DNA from: an uncultured Spirochaetaceae bacterium
GTDB taxonomy: Bacteria; Spirochaetota; Spirochaetia; Sphaerochaetales; Sphaerochaetaceae
Assembly (NCBI GenBank): GCA_900315435.1
Contig: OMYY01000010.1
Location: 1-64,000 of the forward strand
Length of the DNA: 64,000 nt
Direction of reading: 5' to 3'
This document shows positions 46,336 to 48,524 of the stretch, piece by piece. The position numbers and the translations under genes are program-made. Under the pieces are notes generated by a model. It worked only from the letters and a program-made list of their open reading frames with translations. It was not told the DNA's origin and ran no database searches. Every line of letters starts with the position of its first letter. The first letter of the stretch is position 1.

Positions 46336-47679
46336 TCAGGAGGATAGGTGCCTGTCGCGTTTCTTCAGATGAAGGAAAAACCCTGCGCACAGGATGATCT
46401 GGAGGATTGTCGAGCAGGGGATGGCGAGACCGATGGAAAACAGGCTTCCTATCGCGCGGCTCATGCCATACGAGACAGGAATCCGTACCAGGAAGGCGCT
46501 TATGACCCCCTGCACCATGACAAAACCCGTATGTCCGATTCCGTTGTAGAAGCCGACCAGACAGAACAGGAAGCAGGTGAACAGGCAGTCGATGCCGTAG
46601 GCTTTCAGATATTCGGCAGCGGCATTGGTGACCGCCATGTCCGAAGAGAAGATGGAGCAAAGGATGTCCCCATGGAAAAACGCAAGATAGAACATGCCAA
46701 TGCCGATGAGGGTCGAGAGCGCGATCGCATACTTCGTCCCGGTGACAGCCCGGTCCATTTTCCCGGCTCCCTTGTTCTGTGCGACGAACGATGACATCGA
46801 CTGCATGAATGCCGACGGCACGAGCATGATGAATGCGCAGACCTTTTCCGCGACGCCGACAGCCGCGGATGCCGTGACGCCGAGCGTGTTCACGATGGCA
46901 AGGATCACCAGAAATGAAATGCTGACCAAGAAATCCTGCAGGGCAATCGGTGCCCCGAAACGGACGATCTTTGACGCGATGGATTGCTGCAGACGGATCC
47001 TGCCGGGGCCGAACGTAAAGGGAAGAGGCCGTTTCCGTATGAGGAAGAACGAAACGATGACGCTGATCGCCTGGGAAACGACAGTCGCGAGCGCCGCACC
47101 GGCACTACCCATGCCCAATCCGCTGACCAGAAGGAGGTCGCCGAAGATGTTGGCCACGGCGGCAATCATGACGGTCATGAGTGGAGTGGTGGAATCTCCG
47201 ATGCCCCGGAAAACGGCTCCCAGCACGTTGTAGGCGACAATCATGATGGTGCCGGCACCACAAATCTGGATGTAGCGCATCGTCTGCGGGAACGATTCCT
47301 CCGGAGCGTGCATGAGCCTGGCGAGGTTTCCGGAGGCAAGAGGCACGACGATGGTCAGGATGACGCCGATTCCAAAGAAGAGGATGATGCTTGTGCCGAT
47401 GATGTCGCCACCGGACTCCTTGTCGCCTTCACCGATCTTCTGTCCGAGGTAGACGGTCGTCCCCATGGCAAAGCTGACAATCAGGTTCGTCATGGTTGCC
47501 ATCAGCTGGGAGCCGATGGCGACTCCTGAAACATCCGCGCTTGTCCCGAAATGTCCTACGACGAGCAGGTCGACGGCCCCATAGAGCGCCTGCAGGAACA
47601 TGGCGAGAAGCACGGGTCCTGCAAAACGGACGAGCGGTCCTACGATCTTTCCTTTGGTAAAATCCATTGTGCGAGCCAT
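46336..47679 (-). CDS. MATE family efflux transporter with attenuator-like leader
   Basis: 447 residues and twelve predicted helices. GPLVRFAGPVLLAMFLQALY, GAVDLLVVGHFGTSADVSG and YIQICGAGTIMIVAYNVLGA are MATE signatures of the NorM/MepA-like branch. The start at 47679 lies 12 bases after GGAGG; a reading frame to 47769 runs through the terminator hairpin and is not coding. Only 38 bases separate the start codon from an intrinsic terminator at 47711-47764, so expression probably depends on read-through of that leader. Confidence 0.88.
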   Translation of the reverse strand: MARTMDFTKGKIVGPLVRFAGPVLLAMFLQALYGAVDLLVVGHFGTSADVSGVAIGSQLMATMTNLIVSFAMGTTVYLGQKIGEGDKESGGDIIGTSIILFFGIGVILTIVVPLASGNLARLMHAPEESFPQTMRYIQICGAGTIMIVAYNVLGAVFRGIGDSTTPLMTVMIAAVANIFGDLLLVSGLGMGSAGAALATVVSQAISVIVSFFLIRKRPLPFTFGPGRIRLQQSIASKIVRFGAPIALQDFLVSISFLVILAIVNTLGVTASAAVGVAEKVCAFIMLVPSAFMQSMSSFVAQNKGAGKMDRAVTGTKYAIALSTLIGIGMFYLAFFHGDILCSIFSSDMAVTNAAAEYLKAYGIDCLFTCFLFCLVGFYNGIGHTGFVMVQGVISAFLVRIPVSYGMSRAIGSLFSIGLAIPCSTILQIILCAGFFLHLKKRDRHLSS

Positions 47680-47710
47680 GACGGCACCTCCGATGCTTTG
47701 TCCTGGAAAC

Positions 47711-47764
47711 AACAAAAAAGCCGGATAAGACACGGGCATCGCAGCCTGTTGCCTTATCCGGCTT
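47711..47764 (-). terminator. Intrinsic terminator in the leader of the MATE gene
   Basis: On the minus strand AAGCCGGATAAG pairs with CTTATCCGGCTT (12 pairs, plus strand 47718-47729 and 47753-47764), followed by TTTTT and TGTTG. The 23-base loop is itself GC-rich. It could end transcription from the MORN-like gene 200 bases upstream, but its placement directly before the MATE ribosome site, with further inverted repeats upstream, fits an attenuator or riboswitch expression platform. Confidence 0.7.
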
Positions 47765-47851
47765 GTCATTTACGTCGTATCAAGAAGGAGACGAATGACT
47801 TGCCTCCGTGCAAGCAGTCCGTACGTTACTGCACACACGTGTAAAAGTCAA
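47765..47851 (-). promoter_or_regulatory. Structured upstream leader or promoter region of the MATE gene
   Basis: The minus strand has TTGACT (complement of 47846-47851) with TAACGT 17 bases on, overlapped by the palindrome ACACGTGT. Downstream, GTGCAGT pairs with ACTGC..GCAC, and GGAG (in GGAGGCAAG) with CTCC (in CGTCTCC). These are candidate leader stems ahead of the terminator. No known riboswitch consensus was recognised. Confidence 0.35.
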
Positions 47852-47966
47852 TGGCGCATATCTGAAGCTTTCGAAGATGCAGAGAGGATTGCCGGGCAAA
47901 GGACGATGGAACAGAGGCCTGACAATCAGGTTCGTCCTGGCCGCCATCACTTGAAAGTGGATGCTT

Positions 47967-48320
47967 TCATTCGAAAGTAGTGAAGCCGTCACCGTTTTCG
48001 TAGGAGCGCGAGACCGTTTCATCCGGACCATAGGTGTCGTATCCATAGCCGTTGTCGTAGGAATGCGATATTGTTCCGTTCGGACCGTAGGTGGTAAAGC
48101 CGCCTATGCCGTCGGGGTAGCATACCTTCTTGCTTCCGTCCGGATAGTAGGCGGTGTAGCAATACCCGTCGAAGGTGGTGCGTGTCTTCGTGCCATCCCG
48201 ATGGAAGGTCACATAGCCTTCCTCTCCGTCCTCATAGCTTTCCACCTTGCCTTTTTGCGGTACCGCACAGAGATTCTGACAGCAGAGGACTGCCAGAAAT
48301 ACAATGACATATGCGCTCAT
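47967..48320 (-). CDS. Exported MORN-like repeat protein
   Basis: 117 residues. An N-terminal hydrophobic segment (MSAYVIVFLAVLCCQNLCAV) looks like a signal peptide. The remainder is four to five repeats of about 20 residues: GYCYTAYYPDGSKKVCYPDG, GGFTTYGPNGTISHSYDNG and GYDTYGPDETVSRSYENG. The YPDG/YGPNG turns recall MORN or beta-hairpin repeat proteins. The start at 48320 has GGAG at suitable spacing. Function unknown; a cell-surface or periplasmic structural role is plausible. Confidence 0.65.
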   Translation of the reverse strand: MSAYVIVFLAVLCCQNLCAVPQKGKVESYEDGEEGYVTFHRDGTKTRTTFDGYCYTAYYPDGSKKVCYPDGIGGFTTYGPNGTISHSYDNGYGYDTYGPDETVSRSYENGDGFTTFE

Positions 48321-48524
48321 GGTCATGCTCCATCGACATGATATGGCAATTGCGGACACTTGTGAATTGCTCGTAGTGTGATTTCCTCCTCTTTCGCCCC
48401 AGGAACGGGATTTTCCTGAGACGGCTTCGTGCTATGCAAGATTGCATGTCGGCGACTATGATGGATGTCAGGACGAAAGACTCTTCCTCCATCGTTGCCC
48501 CGGAAGGGAAAGGCAGGAGCATCT

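Follow-up and report, generated by a model that had tools for sequence, protein, structure and literature searches.

What is the role of an intrinsic terminator that ends only 38 nucleotides ahead of the start codon of a gene for a MATE family efflux transporter? This arrangement is found on the minus strand of contig OMYY01000010.1 from an uncultured Spirochaetaceae bacterium, of which the first 64,000 nucleotides (the window) were analysed, and a preliminary description of the window had proposed that the leader of the gene might be a riboswitch or an attenuator. The comparison of genomes indicates that the leader is not a chance terminator and that it belongs to a conserved RNA family, which was found with covariance models in Spirochaetota and Clostridia. 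We estimate a probability of roughly two in three that it is a cis-acting RNA switch of the MATE pump, with an embedded terminator, that is of the ON type and responds to a small-molecule signal.

The leader has a size of about 112 nucleotides and is located between a MORN-like open reading frame (ORF) and the MATE gene, the ATG of which is at 47679-47677 (Table 1). The 12 pairs of the terminator stem, the T-run and the distance to the ATG were as originally described, but the label 'GC-rich' was only half right, because the stem is made of six G-C and six A-T pairs. A simple terminator scan of the window did not list this hairpin, because its loop exceeds the length allowed by the scan. The 300-nucleotide leader region folded better than 200 of 200 dinucleotide shuffles (z = -2.94). 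A promoter-like TTGACT is indeed present, but neither of the two inverted repeats proposed earlier held up: GTGCAGT sits in the promoter spacer, upstream of the predicted transcription start, and the CTCC that should pair with GGAG falls in a loop that is not conserved across the family.

The significance of the leader is decided by its relatives, because a second congeneric species has about 100 base pairs (bp) of it in nearly identical form, and the element has undergone compensatory changes in many other genomes. Over 8,015 aligned bases, the window is 99.2% identical to an 8,000-base locus of Treponema ruminis strain RU1, and thus it comes from this species or a very close one. In the second species, the leader again has the MORN gene on one side and the MATE gene on the other, and an extra copy of the element with promoter-like boxes of its own precedes a cytidylate-kinase-like gene; at the base of the terminator of this copy, two pairs have changed in a compensatory way. 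A single 18-mer from the terminator loop retrieved 40 stretches from a collection of 84,980 species, with about 7.5 chance matches expected from our own arithmetic (257 billion bases, two strands). Of these, 34, mostly from Lachnospiraceae, Oscillospiraceae and other Clostridia, were confirmed with covariance model R1, which is based on three treponeme sequences; the other six exact stretches were not. Model R2 was built from 34 sequences, and both models include a local UUGC/GCAA hairpin that was later dropped (see below). Strong matches to R2 (at least 57 bits) were present in 9 of 391 clostridial genomes including the centre genome G170; because this centre was already a known positive, the unbiased rate is 8 of 390. 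In one earlier set of 30 genomes all 30 match by construction. In Spirochaetota, 10 of 325 genomes from three families had matches at an expectation value (E) of 0.001 or better, and on a plasmid of Treponema saccharophilum the element precedes a gene annotated as a MATE family efflux transporter. Forty-five distinct sequences were aligned. Four duplicate loci (L069, L074, L087, L088) were left out of one alignment, A3; L215 is apparently the same sequence as L154.

On the 45 aligned sequences the parts are, in order, a 5' strand (mostly UUGC), CGGAGG(G), hairpin 1 (NUCAUUC, an extendable loop and GAAAUGAN) and the 12-pair terminator, the loop of which contains GCAA and a small top hairpin. 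The structure consists of two hairpins and a 4-pair pseudoknot, in which the terminator loop is linked with the RNA's 5' end. Pairing is retained in 97.2% of 1243 cells, all helices covary, and 13 of the 28 pairs change on both sides. Two-sided changes were found in 52 cells, compared with 9.2 in shuffles, a value that was matched by none of 500 shuffles. Helix 4 is paired in 98.7% of cells in the family and is imperfect in the window itself.

The 5' strand could also form one arm of a local hairpin around CGGAGG, the only one possible at this site, and this UUGC/GCAA hairpin was modelled first. It was dropped from the explanation because covariation favours the pseudoknot: the pseudoknot alone has 11 two-sided cells (1.4 in shuffles; reached by 0 of 500), whereas the competing local pairing has three (1.1 in shuffles; reached by 52 of 500). 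In 9 of 44 rows the 5' strand is not UUGC; five of these pair at all four positions with the terminator loop (for example UCAC/GUGA, CCAC/GUGG and UAGC/GCUA), and none pairs at all four positions locally.

The best promoter-like pair upstream of the element scores at least 9/12 in 38 of 44 members (shuffles: mean 6.2, maximum 12), and its -10 box ends 8-9 nucleotides before the 5' pseudoknot strand in 36 of 44. Therefore, the transcript should begin within a few nucleotides of this strand. In almost every member, the predicted promoter comes before the terminator, which speaks against a MATE start site downstream of the terminator, a case that had been raised against a role of the leader.

In 35 of 43 members (two of the 45 rows, L054 and L080, have no ORF to classify), the nearest downstream ORF codes for a MATE protein, and the distance to the MATE gene is often only tens of nucleotides. 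Among the later finds with R2 in Spirochaetota, a MATE gene is downstream in eight of nine, a number that is not made up of independent cases throughout because several come from congeners. The MATE proteins under the element include groups that share no more than about 20% identity with that of the window, and therefore the RNA follows the function and not a single gene lineage. Since close relatives of the leader accompany comparable pump genes in numerous gut bacteria, it is probably an on/off switch of the pump. Sequence comparison documents the element, its helices, the pseudoknot, the position of the promoter and the gene association, and the anatomy that emerges is that of a terminator-embedded riboswitch. 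The element also has a hallmark of riboswitches in general, in being a structured and conserved 5' leader that includes an expression platform and precedes functionally related genes. The earlier idea of a riboswitch or attenuator has thus gained support from a conserved, terminator-containing leader with a putative promoter of its own before MATE genes in two phyla.

How could such a leader work? Transcription would start a few nucleotides ahead of the UUGC strand. When the signal is absent, the terminator hairpin would form and transcription would halt about 100 nucleotides in. When it is present, the 5' UUGC would pair with the GCAA of the terminator loop, with CGGAGG docking nearby, so that the terminator would be unable to complete and the pump would be made; a ligand would favour formation of the pseudoknot. 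From the analogy with guanidine-IV riboswitches, we infer that the pseudoknot opposes termination and that the switch is turned on by its signal. By the same analogy, the most likely signal would be a small toxic compound, exported by the pump and bound directly by the RNA, so that the leader would be a riboswitch of a class for which no known counterpart was identified.

It should be noted that several observations weigh against this interpretation. The window's own promoter boxes are weak (8/12 for -35 plus -10), and its -10 box is poor, yet they are in the family position. Eight of the 43 members precede genes other than MATE: three cytidylate-kinase-like genes, one fragment assigned to such a gene by eye, and genes for a response regulator, a citrate-type transporter, a hydrolase and a protein with a weak histidine-kinase match. 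Four of the nine rows with a deviating 5' strand (L054, L127, L128, L154) are incompletely paired in the register tested. In addition, 33 of the 45 rows are seeds or carriers of the exact 18-mer used for the search, and therefore it is chiefly the remaining 12 that contribute variation at the 3' pseudoknot strand. Finally, the binding of a small molecule is suggested by analogy, for an element that is known from its sequence.

The alternative that survives best, although we consider it unlikely, is that the element belongs to the published guanidine-IV class (GGAM-1 or mepA motif) or its variant Gd4v and is already contained in the published alignments. These are the nearest known kinds, set apart here by the text of their published descriptions. 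The overall plan is alike: guanidine-IV also has two hairpins and a pseudoknot, the 3' hairpin is an intrinsic terminator whose loop nucleotides pair with an upstream element, and it is an ON-switch that operates via transcription termination (PMC7736828, PMC11611296, PMC12186494). Gd4v has been described as a variant extremely similar to guanidine-IV with an unknown ligand (PMC9788692); like the element, it occurs mostly in gut bacteria. The targets of guanidine-IV and Gd4v include MATE genes, and their hosts include Spirochaetes and Firmicutes. Our element may thus work like these riboswitches. However, the GU...G of the second guanidine-IV loop (G66, U67 and G72 in Lactococcus lactis numbering, 97% conserved; PMC7736828) is absent from the conserved positions of the element, and thus also distinguishes it from Gd4v, as far as the published text, without the figure, can be compared with conservation in the family. 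Both pseudoknot strands of guanidine-IV are in hairpin loops, described as two distant loops or kissing hairpins (PMC12186494, PMC7736828), whereas the 5' strand of the element is at the predicted 5' end of the RNA, 8-9 nucleotides downstream of the -10 box and ahead of hairpin 1. The conserved CGGAGG is a further difference. The gene partners differ as well: guanidine-IV is most often found upstream of sugE, a small multidrug resistance gene, and over half of the Gd4v RNAs are upstream of the PRK07324 transaminase gene (PMC9788692), but neither partner is present among 61 classified ORFs. Conversely, among 35 loci from searches with small multidrug resistance genes, R2 had no match and R3, a model of a shorter related form (see below), had one at E 0.2. 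Because the second-loop nucleotides, the position of the 5' strand and the gene partners all fail, the element was not filed under guanidine-IV or Gd4v; on this text-based comparison, a minor chance is left that it is already inside one of these classes.

No recognisable guanidine-IV was found in leaders of small multidrug resistance genes from Clostridia, Spirochaetota and plasmids, and thus the comparison is based on the text of the papers; four of the clostridial loci carry guanidine-I, and a Paraclostridium locus resembles it by eye. In another spirochaete genus, two loci (L188, L189) have a promoter and two hairpins with complementary loops before small multidrug resistance genes; the second hairpin is an intrinsic terminator 19 nucleotides before the gene, and there is no Rfam match. 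This leader resembles the published plan of guanidine-IV more than our element does.

No family of Rfam 15 matched the element credibly, whether at gathering or at permissive thresholds, in line with the lack of an established class noted at the outset, although it was not established that this release includes guanidine-IV. A MicC match in the window is at chance level (E 2.4; 19 of 90 bits), and so are matches of L131 and L122 to small nucleolar RNAs, small RNAs and microRNAs (E 0.095-1.3, far below the gathering scores). The HMP-PP riboswitch (thiS motif), compared by its description, differs in its genes. The RNA is not described in the accessible parts of the open literature on guanidine-IV, Gd4v, MATE riboswitches and attenuation, with subscription papers outside this scope, and a keyword-level survey (MATE, multidrug and related words) of the available portions of Stav 2019, Brewer 2021 and Narunsky 2024 revealed no account of it.

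A different kind of regulation, to which we assign a low probability, would be a ribosome-mediated attenuator, in which GGAGG is the Shine-Dalgarno motif of a short leader ORF and a drug-stalled ribosome blocks formation of the terminator. The GGAGG motif hardly varies and is close to the 5' end, and attenuators with a terminator in the leader of a drug resistance gene are known, for example for vmlR (PMC9226507). In contrast to these, the element lacks a conserved leader ORF: ATG, GTG or TTG is found 4-12 nucleotides past the site in only 18 of 53 leaders (ATG in four), and the loop of hairpin 1 varies in length without keeping the reading frame. A leader ORF starting from AUU or from a normal start codon was rejected on the same two grounds. 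It is even less probable that the hairpin merely ends the MORN-like transcript or a small trans-acting RNA without control of MATE: promoter and terminator would indeed yield an RNA of about 100 nucleotides, but a MATE gene follows, often closely, in the 35 of 43 cases mentioned above, and the MORN-like gene is present in only 2 of 61 genomes, while the RNA is far more widespread and precedes MATE genes well beyond the range of that gene.

Related forms of the leader were also found. A shorter form before MATE genes in Clostridia contains UUCAUCGGAGGG and GGAUAAGAUG, and its CAUC pairs with GAUG; the same pairing is found in L217-L220, from four genomes of one spirochaete genus outside the class of the window. 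Model R3 of this form was built from only four sequences, with hairpin 1 excluded, and above E 0.001 several of the loci that it matched resemble chance hits. Two clostridial loci, L169 (ABC exporter) and L170 (MFS exporter), are possible distant relatives, assigned to the shorter form by eye and with poor pseudoknot pairing. A third form, with UCAUCGGAGG and AAGAUGUC, is in tandem behind the first form in six loci. This second conserved leader (GUCAUCGGAGGAUC, a hairpin, AAAGAUGUCGRGUGCGC and a terminator) directly follows the element in L005, L053, L061, L064, L082 and L091, where the gene behind the tandem is MATE or cytidylate-kinase-like, and it stands alone in L072 and L175. The tandem forms imply that some leaders may integrate two signals. 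The odds seem evenly balanced that these RNAs constitute an undescribed riboswitch superfamily of gut Clostridia and spirochaetes with at least three forms (the window type, the shorter CAUC/GAUG form with MATE genes and possible ABC and MFS outliers, and the third tandem form), in which a pseudoknot between the 5' end and the terminator loop senses a toxic compound exported by MATE.

Some features of the surroundings should be added. The 112 nucleotides between the MORN stop codon and the promoter (47855-47966) are absent in the sister species, and within them, positions 47919-47949 repeat 31 bp of the MATE gene itself (47474-47504) at 90%, as though a piece of the pump gene had been copied to an upstream site. 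With a limit of E 0.001, the MATE protein of the window has 28 matches in its own genome (G000) and 29 in that of the sister species, but G000 yielded only one coding-strand copy of the RNA.

Table 1. Features of the MATE leader and its neighbourhood in the window.
Feature	Position	Strand	Basis or remark
-35 box TTGACT	47846..47851	-	sequence; family-wide promoter at fixed distance
-10 box TAACGT	47823..47828	-	17-nucleotide spacer; ends 9 nucleotides before pseudoknot strand
Entire element	47713..47824	-	extent of match to covariance models R1 and R2
5' pseudoknot strand UUGC	47810..47813	-	near predicted 5' end of transcript; covariation
Conserved CGGAGG	47803..47808	-	most invariant unpaired stretch toward 5' end
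Hairpin 1 (GUCAUUCGUC...GACGUAAAUGAC)	47765..47799	-	loop length varies in family; outer pairs covary
Intrinsic terminator hairpin, 12 pairs	47718..47764	-	arms 47753-47764 (AAGCCGGATAAG) and 47718-47729 (CTTATCCGGCTT)
3' pseudoknot strand GCAA	47749..47752	-	top of terminator stem; covariation
Top hairpin CAGGC...GCCCGUG within terminator loop	47731..47748	-	family alignment; imperfect in window
Terminator U-run	47714..47719	-	sequence
MATE family efflux transporter, 447 amino acids	46336..47679	-	Pfam MatE, TIGR00797
MORN-like ORF	47967..48359	-	ORF list; upstream context, outside element

MATE pumps export drugs and toxins, but few of their natural inducers are known for gut anaerobes. An RNA that precedes several unrelated MATE subfamilies would offer a direct assay, because a compound that relieves the terminator would reveal the purpose of the pump. 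If the pseudoknot of the 5' end is the switch, the design would be very compact, with aptamer and terminator combined in about 100 nucleotides, and the tandem arrangements suggest that signals may be integrated.
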